From NCBI RefSeq assembly GCF_037975245.1, contig NC_092571.1:25000564-25064563 (forward strand): DNA of 64,000 bases, read 5' to 3'. Under the pieces are notes generated by a model. It was not told the DNA's origin. It did no database searches and saw only the letters and a list, made by a program, of their open reading frames with translations. Origin of the DNA: Apostichopus japonicus. Taxonomy: Eukaryota > Echinodermata > Holothuroidea > Aspidochirotida > Stichopodidae. The translations under genes and the position numbers were made by a program. How positions within the stretch are numbered: position 1 is the stretch's first letter; every line of letters begins with the position of its first letter. Of this stretch, positions 3,033 to 58,700 are shown in pieces.

Positions 3033-6000
3033 GTAACCACCATTCTAAGCCTTTCCCGACCTCCACTTTCACAGCCCCTCCCTTGGTCTGTTTCAGAACC
3101 CTGGCAAATTTTTAATAGTAATATTTACTTGCCTCAACAATCTCACCATCATCTTATCTGTTGAAAAAAAGGGGAAAAAAGGTCATCGTTGTGTAGGTGC
3201 CTGAGGTTGAAAATGTATTTGTGCATGTATGAGGAGTGTGAAACAACAAGATACACTTATAATAAAGTAAAAGTTTTGGCACAGTGTTTAGACAAATGTT
3301 TATGAATATTGAATGTGTCAGATTGAATGTTATAAACAAAGGGAACCGTCTGGCCCCTAGTGTTTACAATCATATCGGTGGCTGGTCAATTAATAAGGTG
3401 CACTCAATGGTGAATCCTAGTAACAGTACTTTGGGTAGTTTATGCTAACAAGCAACAATTTATTAATGCTCGAGTGAAGCTGAGGCGGAATGTTTTTCTA
3501 TATGCAGGCCTTACAGTCATGCTTAATAAAATACTATGGTATCTTCGTACAAACCTGCTAGAGATCTTTGCACTTGTATAGCAATTATTTTGCACAGCCT
3601 TTTTGCGATTTTGATACTGGATAAATTAATTCGCTGGTTCGGTTCATCCGTATAGTGTTGCAGCACGTAGAATTTTTGTGCCCCCTCTTGGTTTAAAGCA
3701 TATACATTGAATAATAAATAATAAATTTTCATGCTCTCTGTGATATGTTTATTTTTCTGCAGATGACCAGAAAAGATGTCACATGCAGTGCAGGATTAGA
3801 GAATGGCATATCTAGGACTAGTTCCTCCACAGAGACCTCCAAAGCCAGGAAAGGAGCTACTCGAAGTGAAAACCAGGAAAAATTGTCCAAATCACAGAGT
3901 CATACTAATTCCAAACAAATGAAGCTGAAATACCCTTATAAAGAAGGTAGTTTGTTACAGTTTCTGTCAAAGCAAGTGTTGATTATCCTTAAAGTACCCG
4001 GACCCCACTCCCATGCAGGGCTGTTTGTCAATTCTATGGACAAGCTCGATAAAGAAAAATTGATGTTTATTTTCTCATCAATATGATTTACAATAGTTTG
4101 ATAATAGAAATAATTACCTAAAAACTCATCAAATAATTGACCTTTTTAAGATTAAAGAAGTCATGTAAAATTTTGTGCAAAACAAAACATGCAATTCTTT
4201 GACAAGTTTTGCACGTCCAATTAAATAAAGTGTTCTTGTTTTGGTCGGTACAACCATTCTTGAAATTAAGATAGAAAAATGGCTACTGTTCATTTGAGAC
4301 GTTCCTTTCCAAAGTGTTGCAAAGGAACGAAAGAAAAAAGGAACAAAAAACAGAAATCAAGTTTGATTTGGTTAAAAACTTGTCTTTTTATTTTACTTTT
4401 CACTGGTCCAAATAAGGTCAATGGAGTCCGATAAACCAAGCAGGAAAAAAGAGATACGACAGGGTATTTCTCCTCAGTGTTCAACCAGACTGTACCATTA
4501 GGCCAAAGGGGTTACCAGACATTCCAGAGGTTATTCTTCCCAAGGTAAATTATAGGTCTGCTTTATACATTCTTTTTGGAAATGTATAAACGATTCAAGC
4601 TCTGTCCAACTAAAGAGTCATCTTTTGAATGAACTGATCTTTTGCTGGCTGGGTTAGGCATAAATTATGTAAGGCTGTATTCAAAAGAAAAACATGCATT
4701 ACCGTGGACAAAAGAACACTGTTCCGTTGCGTATATACTTCACAAACAAGAACACTTCCTATGGTTATTTTGCAGACGAAGTTGTGAATAATCGGTGTAT
4801 AGCCAGCAACTTCACGATCACACGCAATGAGTTATATTTTGGTTCTCAAATGTTTTATCTTGTTTCTTAAAAAAATATTTAAGTCCTTGAAGATGTTCAA
4901 ACACAAAACCATCCACTCTGCAGGTTTACACATTAAAATTTCTGTTGTTCAAATAGATAAAGATTGGCAACCTGTTGTCACCCCCCCCCCCCCACACAAA
5001 CACACAACCATCTCAATTTCAAGTTCCCACCCACCTCATACACATGTCACAGGGATTATTTTCCCCGTCTGGTCAACATCTTCTTATTATACAACTATGA
5101 AATGTCCCAAATACAGCAAAATGTAAGAAGAAAGGGACATAAAGATTTATTACAATATTTATCATATATGAATTGTTAAGCTCTGCAAATATCTTATGAA
5201 CTCTTTTTTGACTTATTTACTTTTACCATTAATTACATTTTCAGGCAGAAGTAAGGTTCCATCACAGGAAACCTGTGACCTCCAAAAGTGTTGATAACCT
5301 ATCCACACTGACTGATAGAAAAACAGATTCAACTGTTGTGAGTTTATATATAATATTGTTGCTATTTTTTAATTCAAATCAGTTGCCTCAAAATAAGTTC
5401 ACATCAACCATTACAGTATCAGAGTTGTGTATGGCAAACTTGCTAAGTTGGTGAAGGTGTATTGTAATTGATGGTGTGTCCACTGTAGCATGCATTAAAC
5501 TTTTAGAAAAGGGGCAGTGAAGTCGTGTGTAGGCATGTAAAGGCTTGCATGTGTAGACATGTGAAGGCGTGTGAAGACATGTGAAGGCATGTGTAGGCGG
5601 CATGTGAAAGAGTGTTGCTGCTGCATGCAGTTGTTTTTCATGTTTTGCTGAGTGTAAGCTGTTAGATTAACCGATACAGGCTCTTGGCTTGGAACCTGCC
5701 GTGACTTGGTCAGATGTTTTCTCTTCAAGCTATTATTTAGAAACAGAGTTCTTTTTCTATTCCGGTTCTCTCTGAATTGACACAGGGATTAATTATGACA
5801 ACTACTAAAATTGGTAGCGACACTTTTAAGTTTTTCCGGAAGTCTATTTTCATTTCATGAAATATAGAAAAAAAGACTATCAAATATTTCACATCTGTTG
5901 TGATTTTGACTTTTTGGTGATTTATAAGTACGTATAAGTATGCCAAGATTCTTTTCAGAATCTAATCTATAGCATTATTGAGTTTGCAATAATTAATTAA

Positions 6001-9000
6001 TTGTATTTGGTGACAAAATGATGGAGAATGCTTCAGTTTGATCTATATTTTATTTCAATAATACCTTGTAGGATTTGGTAAAATCATTTTAAATTGGCAA
6101 CAGACTGCAAAAGCTGCATTTACTAATTTTGTTTGATTGTTACTAAAAATTCCATGGATCTTTACATTAATTTGATTCATATGTCACCCATAATTGCATT
6201 CTCTTTCCTTCATACCAGTCACTTTTATACAAAGGTAACCTCTCAAAGAAATGAAATTATGTTACATTTTTAATTCATTAATCATTTCAGAACACGCAAA
6301 AAGTTATTAAAGACAATTGGGATAGGAAAAAATCTGATCAAGTGAGCAAATTAAAAGGGAAAAGCTCTGAAAAGATAGCTGCCGTTGAGTTTACTGCTGA
6401 GCAATATTGTGAACCACAAACTATAAGCAAGCAACTCAAACTGAAGTACTCTTACAGAGAAGGTAAGTTCCAATAATCATGGGAATGTATATCTTTCCAC
6501 TGTTTCAATGAAAGAAAAAAAAATCTTTTTCTTGTGATTCTATTTTATTTGTAATAAACATTTCCCTCATTGTTCTCGGTTGTAAAATAAATATACCATG
6601 GCATGCATAACTGTGCTATTCAGCTAATCAGTTGCCATATACAGCTAAATTAGCATTGACTCACACAAGTAATTTTGTATTCTTGGGAGTTTAAAAGTTT
6701 GTTTCGAGAAATAGCTTCTTGTTTTTTACTTCAATGCTACAGCAGAAGTTTGGTCTGAATGTTAATAGTAGAAGGTTCATGCTGTCCAGGGGTGTAACAC
6801 ATAAAGTGATACTGGCTCAGTCATCCAGGCTTGACTCTGGGGACTTGAAACTTTTGCTCGATTCATTTCTTAAACGACCAAGAGGGATTTGGCACCTTCG
6901 GAAGCTCAAAGTAGTGGTCCATGAAGGCCCATCAGTTTTGAGTTGGTGTACCGTTTTATTTCATTCACCCCACCTCCCTTTCAGTGATACTATCCATATA
7001 CTCTATGGACAAAATTAGAAGATGTGACATGCCATTTTGACCTTTGAAATTTATTAAATAAATTGATTTATCTTGTTACAAAACCTTAGATCAGTGGAGT
7101 CCTACAAATCAAGACGGGCAGAAGAAGTACAGCCGAGATTTCCTTCTCACCATCCGACCTGAGTGTATCGTTAGACCAGAAGGGCTACCAGATATGCCAG
7201 AGATCATCTTTAAAAAGGTAAAGTCAGGCGTGTAGCCAAAAGGGGGGGGCAAAGGGGGGCACCCCCCCTCTTGATCATATTTTGTTTGTATATTTTTACG
7301 ATATCGCTAGTAATTTCAAGCTTAGATGCAACTTACAAGGCCTGGGAAGTGCCATTTCCAGCGATCTGGGAGGCATTTTCAGCCAAAATTTTCTTGTACG
7401 GGTAGTGCCAACTCATGGTGACGCTACTGTATGCTTCGAGAGTTTTCAATGCAGGATCTACGGCTCTGATAGTTTGCCTACAGGTTCGCCCCTCCCTTCG
7501 CAAATTCCTGGCTACGCGCCTGACTAAAACTAAATTTTACCTGTATGTAATTACTATACATATATATTGAACATTTAATTTGTACTTATATCTATGTATG
7601 TATTCATACACATATATATATTTTGTTTTTTCTTTTCTTTTCTTTTCTTTCTTCAGGGAGTCTTCCACACTGTTAAGCTTTTAAGCTTTATGGAAGACTT
7701 CCCTCCACTTTGTACTTTTGTGGCAAACAAATAAATAAATAAAGTACAGTGTACATAGTAAACTAGCTAAGCTTGGGCTCATGTCAAAATCTAGGCCTAG
7801 TGTTCATCTGGGATTTGAACCTTAAATGGAATGGATGGCAGGGGGGGGGGGATGGCGGCCTGAATGGAGAGCACATGGAGGGGGGAGATTTGGAAGGGTC
7901 AACAAAAAATTGAAGTTGGTTTGAATTGCCAATTTACATATGCCTGTTGTATTTCTCTTCAACTGTTTTAATGAAGGGTGATTGAGGTTTGTGATTTTCA
8001 CAACTGTATGACAGTGTCCAGTGTAGCATTAACACCAATATGCAGTGCTTGCCAGTTGGTTGTTTTAACAAGTAAACTTCAATAATGATTTAATGTGTGA
8101 TCGAAGCACTTCATTATAACTACAAGTTAGCATTAGAAATATTATCTTAACAATTATTTTCATATTTATTAAAGAGGTAATTGGTGTGAAGTTGAAATAG
8201 CCTAGAAATGTTTTACTAGAAAATGAAAGTGGAGGGAGGGGAGGGGGAGAGGGGTGTGGGGTGATTTGCTTTTTCAAAAACTAAATTTTTGAAAAAGAGG
8301 AAATGCAGAGGCCACTTTACTATCTCATGTTTGTACTGCATGATGTGTGGTACCATGAGGATATAATACTTTCACTTTAACTATCACCCTATCCAAAATA
8401 TCTTTTAATAGGCTTTTTATCCTAATAAAGACTAAAGATATTTTTGATAGGGTGATAGTTAAAGGGAAGGTGTGAAGATCAATCTTCAAGTATGCTTCGA
8501 GTTGTAACTGGCAGATTAATTTTATTATAAACAAATTTATAATTGCAAATTGATGTATTCCTTTTTTTCTGTGATATGAAGTCAATAACTGTTTAATTAG
8601 GTCCAAACCTGTCCCAATATTTCGGTACTAACTTATTCCTAGAATATTTGTGTAAACAGTGCAAGAACCTACACCTCCAAATTAGGCTTATCAGTCAAAC
8701 AGGTCGAGATGATGTATTTAATTCAAAGCCACACTGTGTTAAAACTTTTCAGTTGATGTTTATTGATTATTTAAATTGTTTATTTTTCAATGGTTTACAC
8801 TCTAGGCAAAGGTCTGGCCTATTCTTCAGTATGAGTCCTGTGCTTTGAAAGTTACCAATATCGAAGAACAGCCAAGAAATTCGATGTCAGGGAGAGCAAT
8901 TGTAAGTTCACATGTTTGTTTAATACATATCTTAAAAATAGAAAACCTCAATTTGGTGATATTAGAAATCACTCAGTTGTTTTCAAATATGGATGTTGCA

Positions 9001-12000
9001 AAATATGACATTGTGTTGATATGATGTAGGCTTTCCTGGACATTGGAGCTGACTATACAATTGGGGGAGGGAGGGGGTGGGGGTTGGGGGTAGATAGTCT
9101 TGATATATAGTAGTGGTCCTGCAGTAGGCAACCTTAAAAGCCAAATCCTTCCACGAAAGATTTCAGTCCACGTAAACGTATCGGCCCACAAACTTTCGTT
9201 AATCTGGAATGCTTAACCTTGAAGCCTTGTATAGGCTTGAGAACCATTCCCATTCTATCTGTAAATTGCTTATCTAGGTATATTGAGATTTTGATTCTCT
9301 CTGGCCCTTTACCCCAACCCCATGTCCTTCTCTGACCATCGTAGCAAAATTAATTGAGAAAACCATCATCGAGAGGGTATCATGGCTTGTTCAATGTTTC
9401 ATGTTAGGGCATTGAGGTTATCAAAACAAAAAGTTCAGATTTTTCAAAATTAAGACAATTCTGTTGAATGTTAATAAGATGAAAGAGAGGAGCCAAAATT
9501 GTGTCATTCTGATTGTGTAACATGTAGCATAGGACCTGTAACATGTAACACAAAGGGGTCAAAGTTCATTTGTTAACTGGTTTCATGGCTTGGTTTGTTT
9601 CCCTGTGTAGGGGGACAGAATGAAATATACATTAACTTCTATAACTTTATGCTATTTTTTATTACAATAAACATAGTCACCAGCTGTCCCGCCTCCCCTC
9701 TCCTCTGTCAGCAACTTGTGTTCAATATGCAATATGCCAAAATGATGACTATAAACCAACATTGTAAAACTCTGAATTGAAGTTTGACTTATTGTGTTTT
9801 GTTTTGATTGTTTATATTGGGGCCTGTAGATATCACACATTCACCTCAGATGACATTCCAGTGCTCAGAAAATCAAATTTTGGTTGCTAACTCTTGTTTT
9901 GTTAAAATTAATTAGACATGTTCATTTCAACAAACTCTGGTCCTACCCTGCCATCAAACAGATGGGTTTAGGACTTCATATAGGACTTTTAACCTGACAA
10001 ATCCTGACCTTGTGTGATATGGGCTATCTTTCAGTTATTCTTTTGTTCTGTGGATTCATGGTAGCCTTAATTATGTCCTATCCTGTATATTTTAATGATC
10101 ACTCAAAAATGCCCGCTAGGTCCATGGTCAGTACTAACATGAGCAGCTGGGGCTTCTTGAGGCAAGTGATAATCAGCCCCTTGACACTCTTCACTAGTTT
10201 TGCTCAAGGCTGGAATAGTCAAGCTTCCATGCCAAAGTGGTAAGATTCTAGGATCATAAGCTGTGATTGAAAGTTAATAAATATTTTCTAATATTAATAT
10301 AAAATTGATTCCTTTCATTTTTTTATTTATACTGCTTCAATCAAATATAAGTGGAGCAAAATTAAGGTATGGACACACTCCAGTGGTCTGTATAGAAATA
10401 CAACCTGGCAACTTGGTATGCTTTTTGTTTTTGTAAATACATCTCCCTCTTTATGTTTCAAATTGTTTCATTTTATGGTCAGAAAAAGAACGAGTCCTCA
10501 ACCGTAGGTGTGGCACCATCGACCGTTACAGAACCAAAAACGACCAGCAAGAATGGCGTAAAGAAAAATTTAGTGTCAGCAGAAGACAGAGAAAAGTTAA
10601 GTGGCGCTAGAAGCAAGAACAGGATTCAGAATGGTAGACGTGAAACTAAGAAAGAATTGCAATTTATGTTGGAAGAAATCAACGTTTATACTGCAACTGA
10701 GCAAGATCAGCTGTCACTAGCCAGAGGTAAGTTGTATAAAATATTACAAGAAATAACTTGATTTGGGTTAGAGCATGCTGTGGAAAAATTGAATTCTCCT
10801 CTTACAGTTTAGTGTTAAGAAAAATTCACATTGTGTTTGACCTTGACAGAAATAATGGGACAGGTGGGGTGGTGCGGTGGGGGCGGGTGGGTGGGTGGGT
10901 GGTTGGAGGTGGGTTTCATATATGGTAATGGGAATCTCCTTTATTGTTACCTGATTCTAAAGCAGCTTATTGAATTAGCATGGTAGTTTATGGCTAGGTT
11001 ATTATTTCCTTCAATTTGTTGTCCAATTAAGTTTACTTTAATTAGGAACAGAATACAGGACAACCAGCTTAATACAGGAAAAGGGAATTAAACGGTCTAG
11101 TTCAATTACTGTGCTCTTATGCACTAAATGCTACTTTTTTAAACATCAACTCGGGCATTTTCAAGACCACTGCGTGGGATGATTTTGATCAATTTGCTTT
11201 CAAAAATACGCTAGAATATTTGAATGAAGATTACCCCCTCCCCTCCCCCCACCCATCTACGAATTAAAAATTAAAACAGTGGAATCCAGTGCATAGAGTG
11301 GTATCGTTAATATATATGTTTTAGAAATGGAATTTACAACGAGCCACTGTATTCTCTGTTTTGCCCAAACTTTAGGTCAACGGAATTTAACGCATCAACT
11401 CGGAAAGAGGAAATACTCAAGGGATTTTCTTCTTGGCTTCCAGGGTGATTGTACTTGCAAACCAGATGGAATGCCTGATGTGGTGATTGAGAAAGTAAGC
11501 TACAATATCATATCTCTTCTCAAGGATGAAATGGTCTGTGACTAGGGGGGTAGGAGCCGGGGGGCACTGGGGGCACATGCCCCCCCCCACTTTTTTCCAA
11601 AATAGCAAATGGGCCCTACTGGCAAATAAAATATGCCCCTTTGATGAAGAACTGTCTTTTGGATATCTTAAGCCTTTGTTAAGTTTAATATTTTATTGTA
11701 ATTATTTAGTTTTAGTCTGTACATGCTATTTTTAACTTTTGATAGCACGGTTAGCAATAAACAATCTCAATAAAAAGTATTTATAGCATACTAACACATC
11801 GTATATATTTAAGTGATATGGACGGTGTGTATCGGTTTATAACATAACGAGTGGTGGTTGTGGAATGAGAAAGTGCCCCTCTGATGTTGTGCCCCCCACT
11901 TCTTGGAAGCTTCCTACCCCCCTGTCTGTGACTAGCTCAACAGTAAACAGTTTGTTTCTTCGGTGCTTTTATATTAAAGTCCTTACTGATATCTTGGCAA

Positions 12001-15000
12001 TGGTTTATAATGAATAGTGATTCTTTTTTTTGTCTCAGCAAAGTTGCCTCCTAATTATGGGTATTTCTTTATTTATATCTTTTGCATTGCTTTGAAGTAG
12101 CAGAATTACCATTTAGAATTGGTGATGATTTGATGATGTGATCGGGGAGTGGCCAGATAGAAATTTTTAAAATAGTCAAAAAGACAGCAATGCTTCCAAT
12201 TCTCACCAATTCTCAACCGACTTTGAGATACATGGAGAACATATGCCATACAGAGTTGAGACTGTCTTGCTTTTATCGATTTGATTTCTTTTTAATGAAT
12301 AAATTACTGGAAGAGGTGTGGCTTTAAGTTTGCATTGCACTTTTTTTTTTATTTCCCTCAAATTTAATTTTTTTTTTTTTCATCTCAGGATCAGGTTAAG
12401 GTTGTGTTTCCAAAAGATGATTTGTTATCAGAACAGAAAAGAATTCAGACAAACGGTTTGAAAAAGGGAAGATTATTATCGGAAGAAATTCAAGAGGATC
12501 AGTCAAGATTAAGTAGCCGCAGAAAAAACCAAGGGAAGCATGAAGTTACCGAGGGTAACAGGAGAGAAAATGGAGAAAACAAACTCACTTTTGGAGGAAT
12601 CGGACTACAACAATACCAATCAATACTTGAAGGAGGTAGGATATATCAGTCAAAGGAAATCTTGTTAAAAAATTAATTATATCTAATAATATTAAATGTT
12701 TGAAATGAAAATATGTTGTTTGACCGAGTTTCTATGGTAACAGACGAAGGGCTAATTGTTATTTGTAATTTGTGAATAGTTTCTGTTGGATGTGATTTGC
12801 ACTTGTTATACATTGTTTAGTTATTGATTCTTGCATCTTTAGTTCCTATGGTAACGGACCAAGGGCTAATTGTTATTTGTGAATAGTTTCTGTTGGATGT
12901 GATTTGCACTTGTTATATATTGTAAAGTTATTGATTCTTGCATCTTGAGTGGCAAATTTAGTATTTCCACTGTTCCTGTTAACATTTATTTTGTTAACAT
13001 TTATTTTTCTTTATATCCATTAATTCAATTTCTGAATTCCAAACCAATTGTGTTGGAAAATGAAAAAAAAATGATTTTGGAGTTGAAAACATTTAAAAAT
13101 AAATTAACAGTGTATTAAAACAAATTTAAATGATGCATTAGCAAATATAAACAGCTTTATAGGTTTATAGTACCTAACCTAGTGTAAACAGCTGGAGAAG
13201 GTATTTAACAACAATTATCAACTGGACATTCCCTTTAATCTGCAAAGGCCTCCAAAAATATCTTTTCTTGACAAAACTAACAGCAAAATTGAATTTGTTA
13301 GACATCTTCTCCAATACAAAGACCACTTTGTTGTGATTTACTTTTGATATGGCCTTTCATGACTAAACTTTGAATAAAAAATGTAAGTGTGTCTACATCC
13401 CTCTCTAAACCTGAAGAAAATATTTTTTTCTGTGGAAGAGACAAATTTTGTTTGTTTTGCTGCATTTTGTTCAAAGTTACTGCAGGAGCTGGGACCAGAC
13501 CAAGAGAAGATCAACAACCACAGATAGAAGGTAGGATATATTTAGATCAACATCAACATATTTAGATCAACATCAACATATCAGATCAACATCAACATAT
13601 TTGGATCAACATATATTTAGATCGACATTGCAAGTACTGATTAAGGCTGGATCTTGTCAAGTTTTTGTAACTTCACTGTAAGCAAGACAATCGTGTTTTA
13701 TTGAGGGGATCATGATTGCCCAAATTTAATTCCTCATATACAACTCGCTAGATGGGTATTACATGACTGAATCTTCTGTTTGTTTGTACTGTGCACTGCA
13801 GGGGAGCAGGTACCTCTGCTGTCCTCAGGAGTGGGGGGGGGGAGGTAAAATGTAAAGTCATCAAGGGATGGGGTCTAAGAGAAGGGGTGTTCCTCCCATT
13901 TGAGAAATTTTGATAAATGGAGGGTGTGCCTAGATGCAAAATGATGCTTGAATTTAATAGTAACTTCCAAAACGTTGAAGAATTTTCAACTGTTAATACA
14001 TATGTATGTATTGTACACTAGGAATTTGTGTAATATTCTGTCTGCCAGTGAGGTGGGTAGGGGAGGGGGGGTAGGTGATGGGCTAGTCTCAGGAATCGAG
14101 CATCTCATGCGTAAATGAAGGTCCATGGATAGGTGTGAGTTTATTGACGATTTACATGTATGTAGTATCACTCATAGTAACATAATTGCTATGGTAACCA
14201 ACCAGCCATCCAGTTGTTTTACAGAGTGTTTAGCCTTTGCCTTATGAGCAGATGATCAGGGAAACAACCAAGGATATGTGGCCACAGCTTGGACACTTTC
14301 TTCCATAGAATCAATCAAGCTTCCAGAATTGGTTATGCTCCAAATAGTGAATCTAGCTTCGATAACCTCAGAGCTGTTTTGTCTAAGGGTTACCATAGCT
14401 ACAGGCATACTGAGGCTGATGGGAGATTTACTTCTTGGACATGATAAATGAATCCTGTCACAGTTCTACTTCTCAATTGCATAAAAAAAAAACAAGTCCA
14501 GATAATTATGTAATTAATTTGTTGCAGATGTATCGGAGAATGTGGAGACACAAGAGGAGGTTGCAGCTTCATCTATGCAGGAACCATCAGAAGATGTGTA
14601 CAGGGAGACATTTGAGGGAATAATTATAGAATATTTGACTTTGAGGAATGTTCAGGTAGATAGTCACATTACTCATCTAAATGTTTGTATTGGATGACAA
14701 AATGATATAAAAAAGAAACCTTTTGCCCTAAAAATCAGTCATGTTATTTCCTTATACTGATAAAATATTACGTAATTAAGATATTAAGTAATTACATGTA
14801 AAGCTAAATTCTTTATGAACTAGGACAATGTTATCCTGTCTAGTTATTACTCCTTAAAGTATCTGTATCATTCTGCTCATTCAACTTGTATTATTTTTTT
14901 CTTCTTTACCAAGGAGTCTTCTACTCTGTTAAGCCAATTCAGGCTTTATAGAAGACTTCCTTTCACATTGTATTTTTTTTGTGATGAAACAAATAAACAA

Positions 15001-18000: not shown

Positions 18001-20993
18001 CCCCGCCCCCCTCTCCAACCCTGTCCATCTCTCTGCTTGTAATTTAATATCCTCTGGTGGTCAATAAAGGCCTGACGATGGTTACTACATCATGAATATT
18101 CATCGAGAGATCTGTCACACATTTCCATTTTTGTTTCTCTGCAGAATGTCTACCAAGTACTAAGGTTCTGGCGGAACTCAAAGTTTAATTGGAGCCAATT
18201 CGCTCCCGATGACTTAGATATAAAAGAAGTTCTGGAGAAAGAGGTCAGTGTTTTGCTTTCAATTGTTACAAATGAAGCAAGAAAATCAAATCATATTTTA
18301 TGTTATATACTGCTGCTTCTAAGGAAGAAGGGAACTTCAAGTGGCCCAATGAAACTTATACTACAGGTTTTCATGTTTTAAGCAAGGTTTTAGTTCGTTT
18401 GAAATTTGATCGGAGCCTTATACTGCTCAACTGATCACAGTACGTGGTCGCATATGGTCGTAGATGCTTTGAATGGTCATCTCATACAATTCTTATCCAT
18501 AGATGATAATATTTTAAATTTTTAGTGAAGTCTGTATTGGTCGAAATGTTATCTGTTCATTAATACTGGTATCAGCAAACGGCATATTTTACTACCATCC
18601 CGGGGTTTTCAAACTGTCCTTTGTGTAGCCCGGTACAAGTAAAGTATCAATTAGGGGAAGATAGAGGACGTCTTTTATAGTACATCAAAGTAACAAAACC
18701 ATATCTCAAACAGTGGAAAAGAAGAACAGTATAAAATGATAATAAAATAATAAATGAAAAAAATCAGAAAAAATAAAATAATATATAATTACAACAAAGA
18801 AAACCCCTTATATTTGTTGCTTCTCCCTTCAAATGTCACCAGAAACTCGTCTTCATTCTTCCACCGGAGAAAAAAGTGAAGAAAACACCAAAAGTCAAGA
18901 AGGATCCCCTTCCTACTGAGGTAAGTTTTGGTTATGTACCAACAGTGACGTCCTGTTTGAAGACACTTCTTGGTCTTGCCTGCCGTGAATATATTAAATC
19001 TGTGTAAAAGTAAGTTGGCCTGACGTTTCAATCCTAGCAGAAATCTTTTTCAGAGGCTAAATGACAAGTAACAGTAACAGAAGGGATAAAAACATGCACA
19101 GAATACAGACAGGTTAATGAGCACGGTGAACACAAAGAGATAGATGTAAGGGGATTAGTAGACAAGGGATGGAGAGAAGAAAGGCTCTCTAGTGGATAAG
19201 CAGTTTACTAACAGTTTTATTATATATAATATATTAAATAGTAAGCCTGGTGTCATAAAGTAAACTGAAACAATCAACAACAAAAATAAGTTCCGTATTC
19301 TGTTCTTAAATTCTTTTTGTTTCATTGATGGTTCATTTGTAAGTAAATTCTCTTATTAATAGTTTCTCAACAGTTATACAAATGGAATATCTTTCCAAAT
19401 TAATATTCATGATACACTGGTATATGATATCATGTTAGTTATCATCAGCTAAACGATCAGTGGCTTAATCCAAACAGTGGGCTTTATACACAGTTCTTTT
19501 TTTAATTTGCTTGATCTATTAAAAATCATGGTGAATTTGATGCAAAAATATGAATTTATGATTGTATATTGAGGTTTCTATAAAAAGTACAGACTTCAAC
19601 ATCAAGTTCAATTGTGTTTCCTGTTGAATTCAAGAATCAAAGAAAATATTTCAACTTGTAAATATACAGGCAATACAAACATCAATATCACAGGCTAATC
19701 TGTACTGTGACCTGGCTTTAATATCAGCAGGGAATTTTGCAAAAAATATTGAAAAACTCCACTATTGTGAACCTATACATTGCCATTTTGACTTTTTAAC
19801 AATGACCACAATTCTTGCAAAAGGTAGAATGCATTGGTTCGCTCAAGATATCACCATAGTTACAGCAGGCTTTGATTTTTATGCAGATGCAATATACTGC
19901 TTCATTATTGGATGTATTTATCAAACAAGAATTATATTGACTTTGCTGACTTTTGTTCACAGATTCCACAAAGACAGATGAAGCACAAACGAATAGAAAA
20001 GTCAATATCTTCCTTTCAGAATGGCTTGTTGAAGTTGTTACAAAGACAGCCCACGCAGCATAGGAAAGCTTTTGATTTCATTGAGGTGAGACCAGGACTT
20101 TCCTTTGGAAGCCAATTTGGTAAAAATTGGACTATAAATAGACCCATGATTAGACCCAGGACTAATGGTCGGCCAAAACATTTTCTTGAAGGGTTCCACA
20201 AATTGGAAAGGAAAGAAAACTGTCAGTATTTGTCTTGAAAAAAAAAAAACTGGCCAAATCTTGAGCAAAAGTTGCAAAATAAAAAACCATTTTGCAACTT
20301 AAATTGCATGGGTATCATTTCTGTCTTTTTTGGCTTTCCTGTGAATTGTCTTACTCTGTTGACTGCCAATCCAGAAAATGATTATTGGCTGAAACCGAAG
20401 AAGATTAAATAGGGCTAAATCTTGATTTGGTTGTAGTAATTATAAAGCACTTTCACAATGCTGTCCACAGTTTTTTATTTCATTTTTCAGAAGTCAAGTT
20501 TATTCAATTCTCAGACCAAGTGTGATTGTCATTATGGAGTGTTTGTGAGAGCTAAAGTTTAACTATTAAAATCTGTTTTGTTTTTCATTCTTTGTAGAAT
20601 TCAGTCAAAGAGGAAGTGAAGAGTACTAAAGAATTCATTCAAGCACTGGTCTTGGCTGTTCTTATGTCCACAGCTGTTGAGGGTTTGTATTTTGTTTAAT
20701 TAAGCATTTTGTGAAGAAAAGCATAGTTACGTTGCTACCTTGCCTGTAGGGCCTTGAACAGTAGCACAATATATCTTCTTTTAAGTCTATTAAATACTCA
20801 ACAGACTTATACACTAGTTTTCATGTTCAGGAATGCCATATTGGTTTGACTAAGACCCATATCATATGCCAAATGTTGCAATCTTTCACAAGCGATCATA
20901 AATTTGGCCCTGGTTTAGCCAAAGTACATAAATTCACATAATATACATTATACAATATATATATATATATATACACACACATATATATACATA

Positions 20994-21036
<43 letters not shown>

Positions 21037-28745: not shown

Positions 28746-34151
<5,406 letters not shown>

Positions 34152-46353: not shown

Positions 46354-49300
46354 TTAATTCGGAGGGTCTGATTCCTCCAACCAAGTGTAGAAGCTGGTTA
46401 CTGATTTCAAGGCGATACCTTTCCCCGTTTTCTCTGCTGCATCGTCGCTCTCCCTCCAAGAATAGAATGTTTCTTCAGAGATGACGTCTTCGTCGTAAAG
46501 CACATCAAAGTACAAGCGTAGAAGCCCTATTTGAGGAAAGATAAACATGATTTTAACATCACAGCAAAAACCCAACGCCCTGCACGTCCTCCAAAACGCA
46601 AACCTGTCGTCCTACAAGAACTATGACGACTTGATGGCACAAATTCAAATTTCTTTGTATGCTAAATGAACCAAACATGTTCACCACAACTATAGCGGTA
46701 ACATGGTTAACACCATAGTACCAGTACTAGCTCCAAATGAATCCCATCTTTAACCACCATCCCCTATTGCTGCCTTTGCAATGGATAAGCTGCAATCTTA
46801 CTGTGTTATACTCTACAATTAAAGGAAGGATAGAGTACCCAAAGACATTCTCTTTTACTTTATTTCACCAAATTAAACAAAAGCAACAACAAACTCAGGC
46901 AAAATAATCAAAACAAAACAGTTCAAGATTAAACAGCAGATAAAAGTGTCCAACGAATGTGTGGCCTAATATTTTTCCATATGCACTAAACGGTGCGTAC
47001 ACTTGTTCATTAATGGAACAGCCAAATAGATTTATTTTGATGGATCTGTTAGTAAGATTGACAGGTAATCAATCCCTTGCAATTATTACATGGTTTTAGT
47101 AAAAATAACACACAGTTTACCACCAGGAGTGAAATGAAGGCAGACAGATGCTGAAATAACTTTCCAACAACTTTCAATAACTTTCTCTGAAGTTCAAACT
47201 TGTTTTAAACTCACCTGGTGGGTTTTCTAGACTGTAATTCAAATGTTGGACTGCGAAGAGAGCTTGTAATTCTAGTTTGGCGTCACTGTCAATATACCTC
47301 TGCATCAAGACTGATCTTTTCTTCAGTAACTCATGGTCACCCCTACTATTTGTGCCTTCCCCTAAAAGGTAAAAACAAAGAACGAAATTGGCAACGAGGT
47401 TGGTTGCAGTTCCAAAATCAATGTTCTTTTCTGCACTTTCACAACCTTCTTAAAACCAGCCATTCCATGAAAAGCAAACCAAGACTAACTGTTCGGTCAG
47501 TAATACTCAACTCTGGTAAACATCAGGAAGTCCGAGACAGATCTGGTAAATTCTCAAACAAGTAATGAATGGATTCCGGTGAGCCCACAAGAATTTGCAC
47601 AAATTACACTTAAGACTGCGGGAGTAAAGTCAGACTATGTCCTACATAAAGACTTGACATAAAAAAAAAGTATAGGTGACACTATTGTAACATTGTTTTC
47701 TAGACATGGCTTTGATTATTCATTATTGAGCTTAGGTTTGATGGGAATGGGGGGAGGGGTTATACTTTCTCCTTTCCCTCACATAAAGTTACTAACCTTT
47801 CACAGCTCCAAAGCACACAGCTGACACTAAGGCACGTATAAATTCCTTGGTCTTCCTCACATCTGGTGGAATTGATTTCTGTATAAGACAACGGCAAAAC
47901 CAGTTTCTATTACTAGAAGAATCTTATTTTCAAACCTGTTGTTAATAATCCAGAGAGATGCACCATACATCCATGCCTTATAAGAGCTTAATTACTGGGA
48001 AAAAAGACAAAGGAATTTTGGCATAATTTCAGTTTGTTAGTGTTTTTGGTTAGTATGTACTACTGCTTAACAATAATACTGAGTTCTTTGCAAGTTGTGA
48101 GATTTCTAAGTGGTTCACAGAGAAGTTTCTTGTAACTAAAAGTGCTGTAAAGGCCAGTACAATCTAGGCAAATGGCCAAGCCAAGTAATGTAAAGTAAAT
48201 GATTACTGAGAAATAATAATAGAGATCAAAATGATTTTGTTTTTCTGATTCGATAAGGAAATGCTGTCAGAAATGATTCCATGTGATTAATGCTGAAACA
48301 TTACAAGCTGACTCGGATATTCTAACAACACACCTGACTTTCCATGTTGCAGGGATTGTATCACTCATTGCGACACTACTGTCGGAAGTGCAATCTAATC
48401 CTAAATTCAACATCAAGTGGCTTGCAAAAAATATGCACAACTTATAGTAAAAGCTGGCGATATCACTGATCCATTGTTGTCTTAATAGGACTTTGTCTGA
48501 CAATGGGTATAGCTTTTGAATCATTGGTAAGTCATGGAGAAAGGCCAGCAATTAGGAGTTCCAACTGACTACACACACTTACAGACTCTACATTTGAGGT
48601 TCACATGCAGTGATCCCTAAGGTAAGACATGTCTCCATGAATATGCAAACATTTTCCCTAAGGTCAGACATGTCTCTATGAATATGCATTACCTTCTCCC
48701 TATGGTCAGACATTTGCCATGCATATGAATAGTTTCCCTAAGGTAGCACACGTCACCATGAATATTCATACATTTTCCTTAAGGTCAGACATGTCTCTAT
48801 GAATATGCATTAGTTTCCCTAAACGTTTCCCTCTTCGTCCTGTACCAATACAAACACACCTCAAACATTCCTGGTTACCCTCTTTGCCAAAGGAAAATGT
48901 TCCTGTGCCATTTCTCTTACACAATGTCATTCATTTAACTGACATCACAAAACTTGAAATCTGAATGTGAAGCTCACTCACCTCGATGAAGTCAAAGACT
49001 TCATCGTTAGTAAGACTTTCATTCTGGAATTGAAGGATTAGATCCCGCTGGAAGTTTCCTATCCTCGTCTCTTCCTTAGGGGTGCTCTGTGATACTCTAT
49101 CTACTGGCTGCTCTGTGAATGATACTTTCTGTAAACAAAATACAAAACCAACAAATTAACCTACAATGAATTTTTACCCACCAGCAGTGAAAACAATGGT
49201 TTACAATGCACACTACCTGAAATTACTATTTGATTGATTGATTGATCGACTGACATCAAATATACACCAATGTCAGCCTGACTGTATCAAAACTTCTGAA

Positions 49301-49727
49301 TGGCTTTTTTAAAAGGCAATTACCCATACCATAGTTTCAAATATAAATGTACACAATTTCACTCTGAAAGGGTCTGTGAAGCCACCACACAGGTGTTAAT
49401 ATGGATATGGCGAAGTATTCAATGACATGAATGACCGACAATTAACATGCACACTGAATAGCAATATCAAACTAACTTGTTTGTCTTATTTAATTGATGA
49501 AACAAGGTAATTAAAATATTGTTTATAAATGTGGGGGAAAGGTACATGGGCGAGCAAAAGGCAGAAATTAGAGTAGGGGACCTGAGATGACAATGGAGTA
49601 TATTCTTCGATTTCAAAATAGTACTTACCTTATTTTTAACAAATTCTTGGATGTTCGTTCCGGAAGGTAAAAATAGACTCCAGGTGAAATTAGATGTTTT
49701 CCATATTTTGGCCATATGTGTCTCACT
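46354..49727 (-). CDS. EIF4G: W2 domain exons and C-terminus of eIF4G
   Basis: Exons 49727-49629 ([20 protein letters not shown]), 49128-48982, 47878-47797, 47361-47215 and 46526-46354. The last encodes [19 protein letters not shown] followed by [19 protein letters not shown] and the stop. The acidic/aromatic box and the terminal helix of W2 are complete. W2 recruits MNK kinases in vertebrate eIF4G1/3. Confidence 0.93.
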
Positions 49728-52700
49728 CTGTTGAGGGGGAAAGAACCACTAATATTAATCTCCATGCTTTCTGGTGGAAGTCCCATATGATACCATAAAG
49801 AAAGTCTATTTTCACAACTCTCATGCATCAACCTAACATATCTCATAATTTCATGTCATAGTGACTGAGACATCATGTTGATAGTAAGTTTCAAATTGAA
49901 ACAGCAAAACTTTTCATATTGAAAGCACTTGCCTCGAACTGTCCTGAAATAGTACTGGAATGTCAATAGCATACAGTTTGTTTTCTTTTACTGTACATTC
50001 TACAGTCAGCTCAGTCAAGTATTGAGAGGGTGTGTGTAGGGGGGGGGGGCAGGGAGAGACAGGCGATAGCGATGGAGACAGCTATGGCAGGGAACATCTG
50101 AAGGGTATAAGGACATTATTTTGTACAGGGATGAGCCTGGTGTAGAAAAAAAGATCACGGAACTTTGCAAAAATTGTGGTATAGGCACCAGTTTGCGTAT
50201 GCTACAGTGTGTTAGGATAACAGTTTTTGTCCCCGAGGTAAAAAAGAAATCACGTATATTCCCTGAATTCACGGCAAAAGCTCATACCTGTTTGTAAGTG
50301 TAGAATGTTCTACATACTGATCTGATACTGCACTGTAAACTACTGATAATACAATGTAAATACACATCACACAGTCCTCAATCTCTAACATCTATGACGA
50401 CGGCACTCCACAAATAACTCCTCTCCACACACCAATACTTGTCTCTCAATTCGTTCCCTAAACCACCAAGTCTTCAATCTACAAAGTCTATACTCACTGT
50501 TAAATTAACACCAGCCTTCAGGATCTCAGCCATGCACTCGGCCGATTTCCCTTCCCTGGGTATTTTTTGGACCACATCTCGGAGGAATGCAAAGTTGGTG
50601 GCCCCTTCGGCAGCCATAGCTCCGATGATTTCACCCAAGTAAGTCCAATATAGTGGAATATCTATCTCCATGTCCTCTGCAAATTCTAAAATTTCGTTTA
50701 GACTGTAAACAAAATTTAGATCAACATTTGTTACAGAGAGAAGAAAGTCTTTGAAAAAGAATAATTTGCAGAATTCAGCAAAGAAAGGAGATGTCTTAAA
50801 AGTATGGCTGCATGGGGAGTATGTTTCTTTGCAAAAAATTATTTATTTGAATTTCTTCATCACGAAGAAGACCAGAGATCATCCACAATGTTTAAAATCT
50901 CACCTCTTCGTTACCAAGAAAGCTTTGGTGCTTGAAATGGGGTTACTTTTTTAATATAATTATGTCCGTTTCTAATAGTAATTTTTGTCTTTCCACCATT
51001 TTATACCTGGTGTGTTTCAAAGGAAACAACCCTGCAAAGATCAGATTAACCAGAAAGCCAGTTGGCTTAGTGATAACTTGACACAATTTGTATGAGAACA
51101 TTAAACAGCAATACTACAAAACAAGATTCTTATGTGTTGACCGTTAGTGATCGGCAAGATTCTTGCACAAATGCCGACCTGCCTATCAAGTAAGAAGTTC
51201 ATCATCCAAGCTTTAGTTTTATCGGTACAATGTCTACGTGATTTTCAGATCTATTATTAACCTAGAATGAACTTCAACAAAGTAAAACCTTTTGAGTTAC
51301 CAGGTGCGTGCTTACAAAATTAAAAGACTGACCTGACATGACATTTGACCTCCCCAGAAAAGAAGGTGTTTTTGTACCAAATAAGGTGGATCATTCGTAC
51401 CAAGTATGACAATCATCTACCCCTTACTTTAAGGGTAATTATGTTGCAGAGGTTTTCAGATTTTGAGCTTGGTTGACCTCAAACAACCTTTGACATCTAC
51501 CAGTCTCCATAGCATACTTGCACACATCAAGGGAGAGCTACATACCAGTACAAACTGCAACCAAGCAGCACTTTTTGACTTATTATGCTGACAGAGTTTC
51601 ACACTTTTATCTCTGTTGTCTTTTGATGATCGTTGACCTTTACTAATTTCGACAGGGCTCTTGCACTCAGCAAGCAGTATCTATATACAAAGTATGAACT
51701 TTAACAAAGATGCACTTTTTGAGCTATCGTCTTTACAAGGTTTTCAGACTTTGACCCCTGTTGACCTTTGACCTTCACATATATGAAAATGGTGCTAGTA
51801 CTCCATAAGAAGGATCCACATACCACAATAGGAAGGATCCACATACCAAGCATGACATTAACCCACAAGGGACCTTTGAATCTGTTTATACAAGCAGGTG
51901 TCTCACACACACACACAATCATCATCCCATACATTCTGTCCCTTCCAGCAAGGAATCAACATTTGAATTTGCTACCAGTTATAAAACCTGCTGTTATTAT
52001 TGAAATTGCTGCAAGTCACTTGCACTTTACATCCAAGACAGAAAATTTGTATTTTTCTAAATCAATTCTTTCTTTCTTCCAGGTGCAAAAACTGTACCCA
52101 AAATATTTCTCCATATACCTACCCATCGTTAAATTGTTCAACTGAGATGGTGGATGTTTGTAATAGCCTGTGGAAGAGCCTGCCAACGGACTCTCTCATA
52201 CCGCTTGATTTTTCTAGAACATCTTCAATGGCTACGCGGACAAATACATGTTGAAGTTTAGGTGACTTCAGCTCCTCTAAACAAGTAATAGCTTCCTGTA
52301 ACGGATAAAAACAAAAACATTTGACTGTTTAATACAATTGCGAAAGCATGAAGGAAGGGAACGTGATATAATTTGTTGCAGTTGTAAGATCTATGAATTC
52401 TATTTCCCAGACTGAAAATATTTTATGTTTCAGTGGACAAAATATGCTGCATATGCTTGAGTCTTGTTCATTGCCCATGTATTCTGCTGTGCGACACCTG
52501 ATAACATTATACTACAGTGAAATATGCTGCACCAACACAAGCTCTTGCCACAGTTTTGTACCACCCCTTGTATCCAAAAGACCTCAATCCAGCGTGTCCC
52601 AAAGAAAGCAATCCTTCCAGACATAAGGTAGAAAATGTTCTAAGATAGAATCCCTTTAACTTTACCACCATTGTGGGTTTTGCTGGGCAGCTCAGTGGAT

Positions 52701-55700
52701 CTTGATACCAATTACAAACATTTACCAATAAAACCTTGTCACAATAATAACAGACTGTCAATTGCTTCTCTGATGTCTTATGGGAATCAAGGCCTATAAT
52801 AAAGGCTTTCAATCATAAGGTCCCCGGTTCCGGTCACCACCAGATTAATGTATGTCATCCAGTTACAGAGTTGTTGACAATTAACAATTCATAGTCATGG
52901 ACGTTAAATATGAATGTAAGAGACTGACTTCGGTCAGCTTGCGGCTTTGATAAGCTAAATAAGGCTTCTTTGCGAGTTCCTGCTTGCAGGAGGATCTAAT
53001 ATACATACATACATACATACATACATACATACATACATACATACATACATACATACATACCAACATAATATCCATAATAAAGAATGTATTACTATGCATA
53101 CAATGGAATAACTCTCTAATCACACTCTCACACAACTATGGGCAGGATCTGAAATAATAGAGGACTCCGGTAGAAAACTGTTAAATTGTCTTTCATGTTC
53201 AAAACAGTAGCACATGGTCTAGTCACCTCTGATGCATCATTTGAACACAACCAGGGATTTACAGCCCAGCCAAGGGGTCTGATGCTTACTAAGGGTTTGT
53301 AATAACAGCTTGGAATAGGCACATCTAGTAAAGACCATTCAAAGGGATGGCAGGACATCCTTTACTCAAATTGGCATAACAATGTAAGCCTTCATTGATT
53401 TCTTTACTGTGGGCTCGGAATATTGTTTTTGTCGAGTTGAGTAGAGCGGTGGGGTGGGAAGTAGACATTGGATGCCTACATTTATGATATCTTCTCACCT
53501 TGAAGTCTTTGATGCTGACAAATTCCTTTATAGTGGACCTGGACCTCTTCTCATACTCCTCTTCTGATAAGGCTACAGCAGCAGGTGGCTCTACTCCTGA
53601 AAAAGAAAAACAGCAACAGATAAAATAATCGAATGCAAAAACTAAGATCCAAAACACATTCAAATGTGTTATGCAACAGAATATCTACTTGTTGTGTACT
53701 ACAGGAGGACTGTTTAAATTCGGTATTCTAGTCCCATTGATGTATGATGTTCCTTCTCCCAAAACCATGATGTTCATAAAATCATTTCTGCAGGCTTGTG
53801 TGTGTGAATGGAAACTTTTTTTACGACTCTTCACCTTGTGCGAAACATTTCCAGACCACAATCTAAGGATGTTCGCCAGACAGAATCACTCATTAACCAA
53901 CAAAGAGCAGTGACATGTACTCACCTTTGCTCAATTCTTGGATCCATGCGAGAGTCGACCCTATTTGTGTTTGCATAGGAAAGTATCACTGCAGTCATAA
54001 CATCAAGCCTAGTTTATCATATGCCATATGCTTACTGTCATTTACCTCCTGTACACTAACAGTTAAGATCCTTTCGAACATGGTCTTGACAATTGATAAC
54101 TTGATATTCTGTATCACACACGGATTAGCTAGACAAACGCCCCTTACACAGATTAGCTAGACAAACTCCCCTCATCCCTCCTTTTCTCTCTACTACTTTT
54201 CTTTTATCTACTTACTCTTTTCCTGGTTTCTGTCAAGTTCGTTAGACCTTGACTTCAGTGACCCTGTGAATCGCTGCGTGTCCGCTATCGCCGACTGTCT
54301 CTCTCTCGAACGATCAATCTCCCTCTCTCTGGACCGCTTGGAGCCGGAAGATGACCTGCCCTTGTTATCCCTCGCTGATGGTGGTAACATGGACCTACAA
54401 GCATACCAGGAAGAAAATATTTCAAGCATTACAGGAGAAGTTCATCAATCGCTTGCCTCTTGAGCTGCATTTAAACTGGTGCAAGATTAGGGTGGGTCAG
54501 GACAGAGGGTATGGGATAGGGAAGAGTAGGCGAACATTATACAGGGTGTCCAATTATTCATCGATTCTCATCAATATCTGAACAATGGATAGTGAAGCCA
54601 AAAGCAGTGTTAACATGAGTTGAGAAAAAGCTGTGTGTATAGGGTCTTGTAGAACCACAACTTTTTGCTGCCTAATACCCCATTGGGTCCTTCCTCAAGA
54701 TGTAGATTGCTGCCCTTTTATGAGCAATCCCACGAACTTAGGAAGTTCTACTTTGTCTGTAGAATGCTGTAGGTATCCAGCGTCCATCTACAGAACCTTG
54801 CTAAGATCTGCTTGTTTATTTTACAAATTATTCTTCAGACAAAAAAATGAAATTCTCATTGAGATCATTCCTACTTTATTATTCTTTCACTGAAATGCAT
54901 TGTTTCAATATTTAACATTTTTATACCTTTAAATTGAATGAAGTGTTAACTATTTTCCACTGTGCATCATTTGGGGGTGAGGGGGGGGGGGCTTAACTTG
55001 CAGCAAAAATTGAAACCATGTTACAATAAATCTGGGTTAAGCTCAGTTTTAATAAATCCAGTTGACATACCCAGTACAATTACCTATTCTTTTGCCCTTG
55101 TTCTTTATTTTGTAATTCAATATTGCATTTTGGCATCCACATTTTAAATTCCTACCCTACTCTGCACTCTTTAATACATTACCTTGATTGTTGTTTATCC
55201 TCTCCGAGCATCATGAACCTGTTACCCTGAGAAATTTTAGCCTCCGAGGAACCCGAGGACGACTTCCCTCCTCCTCCACTGCTGCCTTTGCCCCAGCCCC
55301 CTAAGGAGCCCGGTCTGCCACCTGGACCCAACTGTACATTATCATCAATGGTTTGCTGAAGAGTAACAAACAAAGAATTATGCACCAAACATACTAAATG
55401 TGAAAACAACAGTGAAATCAGAAACTTCCAACTGGTGGAACACAAAAGGGTCACATAATGGGATTGGGGGGGAGGGGGAGATCACATTTCATTAACAAAA
55501 AGGTACATGGCACATGGTTTTATATGGGCTCAGGGAATATGGCAGTTTGAGGGTATGGTGGTATTGTGTATATGTGGGTAGGTTTAGCAGAGTCAAAATA
55601 CACTCATGCCTATGAAATAAAACTGAAGTGTATACCTTGCCACATAATTATAACAAGTTTAATCAACACTCACCCTTGTAATTTTAAGCTTGGCTGGGTT

Positions 55701-58700
55701 TTCAATAACGTTTTGTTTGGTACTCCTGTTTCCTGAGACAGTATTCCATCCCCCATCCTCCTGGTATTTCTCCATGCTCCCCTGCGGTCTCTTTGATGAC
55801 TGTCGGGGTGCTAAACGAGAGGTTAGTTGCTCCTGTTCTCTCTTTTGCTTTTCCATCTCGGCTTCCTTTCTAATCTGGTCGATCATAACTGGCTTGGCTT
55901 CATTTCGCCTTGGCTTCCAGTTGTTCTGTAATATATCAAAATGGTACCATCAAGCAAGTGTGTTCTACAATATCGTTGCCAACACATGGCAGTAGAAGCA
56001 TAAATGGGATTATGCATAATCACTGCCTCGACCCAGTAGACCTAAGGCTGTATGGTTTCACTAATGTCAGAAACCAGCAGTCAAAGTGAGCTTTCACTGA
56101 TGCAATGTTCAAGTTCATTCAACTATATTCACCATTCATCATTTTAGTCTACGGACCCACTTGTTCTCTTAAACTTGTTTTTATTACCTGTGTGTGACAT
56201 GTTAAATACCAATTTCTTTGTATTTACAAATAAATCTGTATGTTTACATGTACATTTTTCTGCTCAGGTCAGTTTCATGGATTCTTTTAACATTGTTCCA
56301 AGTTTAAAGTAAAGCACAACTGTTGTGTAACCAAGGCTTTGTGCCAGCGACAGACAGCCAGAGCATGGCCATAGGCACAATCCACAAGTTTGCCAGCTAG
56401 GCTGTGAATAGGACCACTTAGTACTGCATATTTCTGGCTACAGCCTTGCCTGGAACTGCCGTAATCATAAAAGAACTATAAGACAATGCAGACTCTACAA
56501 AATAAAGACCCTCGTTAATAAACCGATACAAGCAACCACTGAACCTCTTGCAGGTCTCTACTGCAAAAGTTGGAGCTAATTGATGAGTGGTTTTGCTTTC
56601 AAACAATGCAGACTTTTCCCTTGACACAATGTCCTTAAGGCACAAGCCCCTTACAGATAATAATACAAACAAATGAATAGTACAACAAATACAAACAAAC
56701 AAATAGTAGAACCAAAACAAACAAACAAATAGTACAACAAATAAATACAAACAAATAGTACAATCCAACAATAGTTTAAGCAAATAGTTAATAGTTGAGT
56801 ATGTCTCTTATCATGCATAAGGTCTCCATCTATTATCAAATGGAAACCAAAGTTTGCACATTAGGAGTTTCTTTGCCCTCCATTACTAGATAGGATTCTT
56901 ACCAAGGGAGATCATACCACGAGTGGAGGGTTGGAGCATTTGTCCGACTTTGTTAGGTTTATGCAGAAAATGTTCAACTACTTTCGTGTTATATATATTA
57001 ACATATATATATTATATATATAATTAGTTAATGAGTACTTTGTTTTGACCATGTTTCCAATACTAAGATTCTATGTACAGACACTGTGATAAAAAATCTT
57101 TACAAATTAAGCTTACATAGCTAGCCATGTCAGATAAATGATGTCCTGTAGAACTTTTAAATTCCAGAATTTGAACTTGGCAAACTCAAAACATGACAAA
57201 ACCCTGTAGATAGATATGTAGTAATATCGAACTTACATCTCGTAGATCCTTAAGATCATGCAGCATAAATCGTATCCTGGAGGAAATTTTCTTCTCTTTG
57301 ATAATTTTGTCTACTTGGTTGAAGTACTGATCCATTAATGCCTGCAACAGGAAGGGAAAAAAAGAATTTCAATACAATTGCTTTCATTAGACCTTCCAGC
57401 ACTTACTATGTCCATAAACAAGTCCAGAATTAACAACTATAATACAGATTGCATACAGATAAACATATTGGTCCAGCTCCCCCCCCCCCCATCTTGATAA
57501 TTATATAGCTTAGTTCAGATCAGAATTTCACATATGTCAACTGAAACTTGGAAAGCATCATTCTTTTTTGTACATTTACTTCTTTATATGAAAAGAGCTT
57601 TCAATGAATAAGCCAACGAACCAACTTTAGGACACTTGTAGGAAATAGCATTGAAAAAGCAAACAAGCTGCACACTCACAAGCCAAAGAAAAAAAATGTT
57701 ATCATCTCTACCAACCCACCCCCCCCCCCTTTGATCTAATTACCCCAAACTGAAGCGACCCACATCACTACACTCTCCCAACCACCATTAAAGTTCCTCA
57801 AATAGTTTGCTCTATACCTTCATTGCACACTGCTTGCCCCATCCTTCCCTCCCCCATCCTCCCCACCCTTTCCCATATAAGATTGTTAGAGAACCTACCT
57901 TGCCCTTTTGATGGTCAAGACTTTGTCCAATAGTCGAAACCAACTTGGACATGCACTCTAAGGACTCTTCATCTTTAGCCTTTAGTAACAGGAAGATGCA
58001 GCCTTGCATAATCTTCTCTGTCAGCAGAGATAGTTTGAAGAGTTCTCCGATGAATCGGATATTGCCGATAATCTGTTTCTTAGCAATCATCTGTTGGTAC
58101 TCTAGTTCTGCTTGGGCTTCTTCTTGTTCTTTTGCCTTTAACACGTAAATTAAAGGACGACAAATGTGAAGGATAAAAGTGATGAATATCAGATATTCCT
58201 GGCATCTCAAACAAATGCAAAACAAGAATCTAGTGTCAGCGGTCCAACAAACCCTTGGATGAGTGAGATAACCAAAACGGAGGGGAAATGTTTCACATCT
58301 TTCTGTCCGGAAGGAACAGATTTGAAATAAGATCCATTATTTGACCTATTTCAAGGAGAGATACAAAGAAATGTACAGAAGAAAACTTTAAAAAATTTAA
58401 GAGCTGAAAGTACTGTGGCCATGTTGAGATTATACCTGCTGAATATTTGAATGGTACCTTCAAAATGGAGTTACATTTTTTGGGGGGGGGGTTACATTTT
58501 TTTTGGGGGGGGAGCAGTTTGATGAAGTTCATCACACATGTAGAAATGACATGGACCTGCTTATCCTTCAAAGGCTCCAAATCGTGAATGAAATGATAAA
58601 TTTGTAACGATGGTTGTAACTTAATTCCTTTTTTTTAAATCATACAGAAGGAATTAGGTGGTTAGGGAATGTCTTACCGACAGAGCCGCGATCCTCTTCT

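Follow-up and report, generated by a model that had tools for sequence, protein, structure and literature searches.

The stretch of Apostichopus japonicus DNA considered here, termed the window, is 64,000 nucleotides long and corresponds to C11:25000564-25064563 of a 671.6 Mb genome; positions outside it are given in window numbering. As read from its sequence, the locus is a cluster consisting of gene B, an ordinary eIF4G gene on the opposite strand and a recent upstream duplicate with MIF4G, MA3 and W2 domains, termed copy A. Gene B is the main subject. Three of its exons carry an eIF4E-binding motif, MA3 and W2 are retained, and MIF4G was not found in the searches described below. Its product might be a multivalent competitor of eIF4G that resembles the eIF4E-binding proteins (4E-BPs).

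Exon chain and domains of gene B

Gene B is found on the + strand at 3763-22746 and is readable as 19 exons, whose boundaries were placed manually with open frames and AG/GT splice letters as guides. All introns (18/18) are GT-AG, and this core forms a single open frame of 878 codons that is uninterrupted by a stop or frameshift. The first exon has a putative ATG start directly 3′ of its splice acceptor. A preliminary description of the locus ended the gene at 12635, which is too early, as the chain continues to 22746. The parts are:

3763..3946, + strand: unit 1 upstream exon, with the ATG right after the acceptor; ends ...KQMKLKYPYKE
4417..4544 (128 b), + strand: unit 1 motif exon, YDRVFLL and arm, RPKGLPDIPEVILPK
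5245..5337, + strand: unit 1 third exon, 93 b, the length of the corresponding exon of the ordinary gene
6291..6462, + strand: unit 2 upstream exon; ends ...KQLKLKYSYRE
7090..7217 (128 b), + strand: unit 2 motif exon, YSRDFLL and arm, RPEGLPDMPEIIFKK
8806..8901, + strand: unit 2 third exon, 96 b
10483..10726, + strand: unit 3 upstream exon, without the LKYxYRE end
11376..11494, + strand: unit 3 motif exon, 119 b, YSRDFLL, arm three residues shorter
12389..12635, + strand: linker exon 3′ of unit 3
13486..13530, + strand: 45-b exon linking unit 3 to MA3; MIF4G not found here
14528-14655, 15503-15675, 17350-17554, 18145-18243, + strand: MA3 (HEAT-2) exons
18843..18920, + strand: linker exon between MA3 and W2
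19963-20085, 20598-20682, 21082-21231, 22610-22746, + strand: W2 (HEAT-3) exons, then TAA; C-terminal end shortened

Addition of three upstream exons (618-3032, discussed with the neighbouring genes) gives a model of 22 exons and 1,028 residues, and this model was compared with Pfam. The eIF4E-binding family PF21140 (2.7e-13), MA3 (PF02847, 3.8e-12) and W2 (PF02020, 2.5e-8) exceeded their cut-offs; two further, weak families did not reach theirs. The C-terminal domains match human 1ug3_A with E = 6.7e-32. The W2 domain ends in ...ASNFFNSLG and is shortened relative to that of the ordinary gene.

MIF4G was not found in the 22-exon model by Pfam at E values up to 1. Genome-wide, the MIF4G model (PF02854) gave five matches, none in gene B; the ordinary gene and copy A account for one exon each, and the remaining three matches lie on other contigs. 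In a tblastn search with the ordinary MIF4G (E ≤ 0.01), the ordinary gene and copy A were matched and gene B was not, and the same run with the ordinary MA3 and W2 recovers four exons of gene B, one from MA3 and three from W2. The term eIF4G paralogue, used in the preliminary description, is apt by descent, as MA3 and W2 are present, but not for a working initiation scaffold, as MIF4G was not found. Judged by its domains, gene B is derived from eIF4G yet lacks a detectable MIF4G (HEAT-1) core, one of the features that define eIF4G.

Amino acid identity in MA3 is 44.6% between human and the ordinary gene, 33.8% between the ordinary gene and gene B and 27.0% between human and gene B; for W2 the respective values are 46.4%, 43.8% and 34.7%. 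Gene B represents a long branch. In five of five parts (MA3, W2 and units 1-3), its identity with the ordinary gene exceeds that with human, in agreement with duplication along the echinoderm line.

The three eIF4E-binding modules

The three YxxxxLL motif exons described earlier (YDRVFLL, YSRDFLL and YSRDFLL) are borne out, with order and phase alike: each is entered in phase 1 and left in phase 0, which is also the phase of the motif exon in the ordinary eIF4G of the same genome. The first two are 128 b, as had been noted, and equal in length the ordinary motif exon (63342-63215, - strand). A seven-letter motif by itself is weak evidence, and it is the homology of the whole exon that carries weight. 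This homology far exceeds chance: with the ordinary motif exon as tblastn query, units 1, 2 and 3 are detected at E = 7e-20, 7e-17 and 3e-10, respectively, and no further motif exon appears over 134 kb, where the only matches are these units and the ordinary gene. Protein identity among the three motif exons of gene B is 46-59%.

The units are not equally complete. The GxPDxP arm, which had been assigned to all three, is present in units 1 and 2, but unit 3 reads GMPD---VVIEK, with a deletion of three residues. Unit 3 is also without the QWSP and LKYxYRE pieces, and the canonical helix is kept. Likewise, the proposal of a repeated three-exon unit stands in part for units 1 and 2, but the outer exons of unit 3 display only scattered identity. 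Units 1 and 2 share the upstream-exon end KQxKLKYxYxE, with 18/57 identities over the whole exon. Against their ordinary counterpart, the third exons of units 1 and 2 have 13/30 and 9/31 identities, and they do not align with each other (1/16). The comparisons of the unit 3 outer exons with the others, made with no shuffled control, gave 10/54, 12/59, 7/26 and 8/26 identities. It is solely by its motif exon and by exon order and phase that unit 3 is read as a duplicate.

A search of the PDB matched unit 1 (E = 1.1e-10 over 51 residues) and unit 2 (E = 5.9e-10 over 55 residues) to 5t46_B, a human eIF4G1 fragment solved with eIF4E; unit 3 matched it weakly (E = 0.0045). Residues L633, I636, V639 and V640 of human eIF4G touch the lateral face of eIF4E (as stated in an extract of PMC8558276). 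When these are placed on the GLPHISDVVL stretch by a hand count along the alignment, the corresponding residues are L,I,V,I in unit 1, L,M,I,I in unit 2 and M,-,V,V in unit 3. Hydrophobic residues are thus kept at 4/4 positions in units 1 and 2, and at all but one in unit 3. Units 1 and 2 are predicted to encode a two-part (canonical plus lateral) eIF4E-binding module like that of human eIF4G1.

Proportions of synonymous (pS) and non-synonymous (pN) differences were counted pair by pair on short exons, with no tree. With the ordinary motif exon compared alongside those of units 1-3 (6/6 pairs, 39-42 codons each), pS is 0.75-1.02 and pN is 0.19-0.32; the three pairs within gene B have pN values of 0.21, 0.32 and 0.32. 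Such low pN at saturated pS points to long purifying selection. Between gene B and the ordinary gene, MA3 displays pS 0.77 and pN 0.42, and W2 pS 0.88 and pN 0.37. The motif exons appear to have been kept by long purifying selection, tighter than that on the C-terminal domains.

Neighbouring eIF4G sequences

The ordinary gene and a young copy of its 5′ part are represented in the window as follows:

46357..63342, - strand: portion of the ordinary eIF4G that falls in the window, comprising a single motif exon (63342-63215), MIF4G, MA3 and W2
618-711, 1419-1555, 2814-3032, + strand: recent damaged duplicate of ordinary N-terminal exons; possible 5′ exons of gene B

The ordinary eIF4G extends on the - strand from ~72950 to 46357, its N-terminal exons lying past the window end. 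Copy A is on the + strand at -44265 to -13652 (C11:24956298-24986911). Pieces of the ordinary gene gave 15 tblastn matches to copy A, 11/15 at 82.9-100% identity and 4/15 at 57.8-79.5%; two of the four lower ones extend into introns. Synonymous divergence (dS) between copy A and the ordinary gene is 0.076 and omega is 0.56 over 729 codons. All 15 compared stretches, which do not amount to every exon, are open. The first retained exon has AT at the acceptor where AG is expected. No motif exon was found for copy A in a search back to C11:24910001. At the position of the ordinary TAA, copy A reads TAC TGG TGA, placing its stop two codons later; a coding read-through from copy A into gene B was rejected on account of this in-frame TGA. 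The MA3 intron of copy A contains inverted satellite arrays at -32487 to -28056 and -23277 to -20098, with a unit of about 179 bases as taken from the spacing of self-matches.

The sequence from -855 to 3032 duplicates the 5′ end of the ordinary gene, in four main blocks with 84-93% DNA identity, introns included. Its dS relative to the ordinary gene is 0.09 and its omega 0.61 (193 codons); with omega near 0.6, constraint is not demonstrated there. In our numbering of the ordinary exons, this young copy is without part of the fourth exon, including the acceptor, and ends inside the fifth at ~3040. Because self-comparison showed exons 618-3032 to be recently copied from the 5′ end of the ordinary gene, they are considered only possible 5′ exons of gene B and not an established part of it. 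Phase permits splicing to 3763 from 1555, or from 3032, a donor that the ordinary gene does not use there. Taken together with this copy, gene B is a mosaic, an old core (3763-22746) behind a young, damaged ordinary 5′ end.

A single-nucleotide polymorphism (SNP) associated with papilla number in A. japonicus lies in an EIF4G intron, and its primers have been published (in an extract of PMC10077181). Both primers match exactly at the ordinary gene (69834-69307) and at the young 5′ copy (655-1187), with products of 528 and 533 bases, respectively. What is scored as a polymorphism could thus reflect divergence of the two duplicates instead of allelic variation. As to the quantitative PCR (qPCR) primers in the same extract, the reverse primer has an exact match, and the forward primer matches the end of ordinary exon 2 with its first 17 bases and the start of exon 3 with its last three letters, as expected across the splice. 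These primer matches point to A. japonicus itself or a near relative as the source of the genome.

Other features were observed. Between the two convergent eIF4G genes, 30299-30672 consists of 53 perfect copies of the 7-base GAGGAGG. On the - strand, 37482-37039 is open over 148 codons and includes a helical-looking stretch suspected to be a death-fold domain, but Pfam gave no match to the first 110 residues at E up to 0.1. COX1 pieces with in-frame TGA are found at C29:14745-31219, probably a second mitochondrial or a nuclear-mitochondrial contig. The mitochondrial contig itself measures 16,099 b, and its COX1 is free of stops with genetic codes 4, 5, 9 and 13; code 9, that of echinoderms (AAA=Asn, ATA=Ile, AGA=Ser), is preferred because it yields residues regarded as conserved.

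Interpretation and relation to known proteins

The reading that we favour, which we hold with about even confidence, is that gene B is an old eIF4G-derived gene that lost the MIF4G core and multiplied the eIF4E module, so that its product would act as a multivalent, 4E-BP-like competitor of eIF4G. We infer that the product is made and that it would bind two to three eIF4E molecules per chain through their dorsal and lateral faces; seven eIF4E-domain exon matches across three contigs of the genome provide candidate partners. The ordinary eIF4G links eIF4E to the ribosome via its middle domain. Without MIF4G, the gene B product could not recruit ribosomes in that way and would compete with the ordinary eIF4G, from which it would take eIF4E. 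Capped mRNAs or free eIF4E might be held inactive or clustered. With more than one site per chain, the product would have a higher avidity for eIF4E on adjacent capped mRNAs, which it could cluster. The earlier idea of a multivalent binder fits two complete modules and one shortened module in one open chain, with motif exons that look maintained by purifying selection; what does not survive is an extra-strong scaffold, as the apparent absence of MIF4G likely shifts the function from such a scaffold to a competitor.

Several points weigh against this interpretation. No clear homology is seen in the outer exons of unit 3, a unit that is itself shortened. Of the five matches to PF21140 genome-wide (E up to 10), three are the ordinary gene and units 1 and 2, and the two others have E values of 5-6 on different contigs; unit 2 falls below the curated cut-off and unit 3 is missed, which makes the count a lower bound. 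The silence of the genome-wide MIF4G search on gene B is weak evidence by itself, because exons were scored singly and just one exon was recovered from each MIF4G known here, that of the ordinary gene and that of copy A. A MIF4G that had diverged far beyond the other domains of gene B could have escaped detection. MA3 and W2 have themselves diverged, so parts of the gene may be relaxed. The start of gene B is a putative ATG, and the 5′ joins to the young copy are allowed by phase. Lastly, the one published expression assay that was found (in the extract of PMC10077181) targets the ordinary gene.

It is conceivable, if unlikely, that gene B is a scaffold on which several eIF4E molecules are brought to Mnk, by way of W2, or to eIF4A, by way of MA3, and are thus modified rather than sequestered. 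MA3 and W2 are retained despite the loss of MIF4G, and Mnk docks at the carboxy-terminal part of mammalian eIF4G and phosphorylates eIF4E (according to an extract of PMC3359775). The shortened C-terminal end of the gene B W2 speaks against such a scaffold. The region affected is presumably the aromatic/acidic box, which we take to be needed for Mnk.

The units might instead be alternative cassettes, with most mRNAs carrying one or two of them and binding that is tunable rather than trivalent. Units 1 and 2 both begin and end in phase 0, and the frame survives if either is left out, which makes isoforms with fewer sites possible, and phase permits each of the three motif exons to follow any upstream unit exon. 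On the other hand, all three units can be joined in one open frame, skipping of a motif exon alone (128 or 119 b) breaks the frame, unit 3 as a whole (phase 0 to 1) is not droppable without a frame change, and the motif exons are not side by side but have other exons between them. We regard the alternative-cassette reading as quite improbable.

A relic that worked until recently and is now in decay is suggested by the damaged N-terminal copy upstream, the fast evolution of MA3 and the shortening of unit 3, but the intact core with its GT-AG introns and a motif exon pN far under the saturated pS make decay doubtful. A tandem or assembly artefact is hardly credible, even at a locus with recent inverted and tandem duplicates, and misassembly was rejected because the motif exons are too divergent. 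The locus is also within a 28.4-Mb contig.

The proposed competitor can be compared with known systems. As with eIF4G1 and eIF4G3 (human 5t46 and 1ug3), gene B has the canonical plus lateral eIF4E module, MA3 and W2; it differs in having three modules rather than one, an undetected MIF4G and a shortened W2 end. Like the 4E-BPs (4E-BP1-3, Thor, 4E-T and Cup), it is predicted to bind eIF4E dorsally and laterally without a ribosome-recruiting core, but it descends from eIF4G, keeps MA3 and W2 and has several modules. Drosophila Mextli is an eIF4E-binding protein with MIF4G and KH domains. A three-part eIF4E contact is given for Mextli, and a single canonical motif is described as common to 4E-BPs and eIF4G (both in the extract of PMC8558276). 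In contrast to Mextli, MIF4G was not found in gene B and the whole eIF4E module is repeated. Among the literature matches listed (titles and abstract starts, with most subscription papers outside), none describes a protein related to eIF4G that has multiple canonical eIF4E sites or has lost MIF4G.

DAP5/eIF4G2 is eIF4G-derived and has lost one half of the eIF4F scaffold: it keeps MIF4G-MA3-W2 without an eIF4E site. Gene B shows the opposite loss, with eIF4E sites kept and MIF4G not found; the DAP5-like layout at this locus is that of copy A, where MIF4G, MA3 and W2 are present and an eIF4E motif was not found. More tentatively, gene B may represent an initiation scaffold turned into a dedicated multivalent eIF4E trap, with the core deleted and the module tripled, a mirror image of DAP5. 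In sea cucumbers, such a trap could serve as a bulk switch that clusters eIF4E, e.g., in eggs or during aestivation, although these stages are guesses.

If made as predicted, the product would regulate eIF4E in the manner of a 4E-BP although it arose from eIF4G itself, and its eIF4E valency would be above one. Were this reading true, evolution would have separated the eIF4E module from the MIF4G core in the direction opposite to that of DAP5, and gene B would offer a clean test of valency versus affinity in the control of cap-dependent translation.

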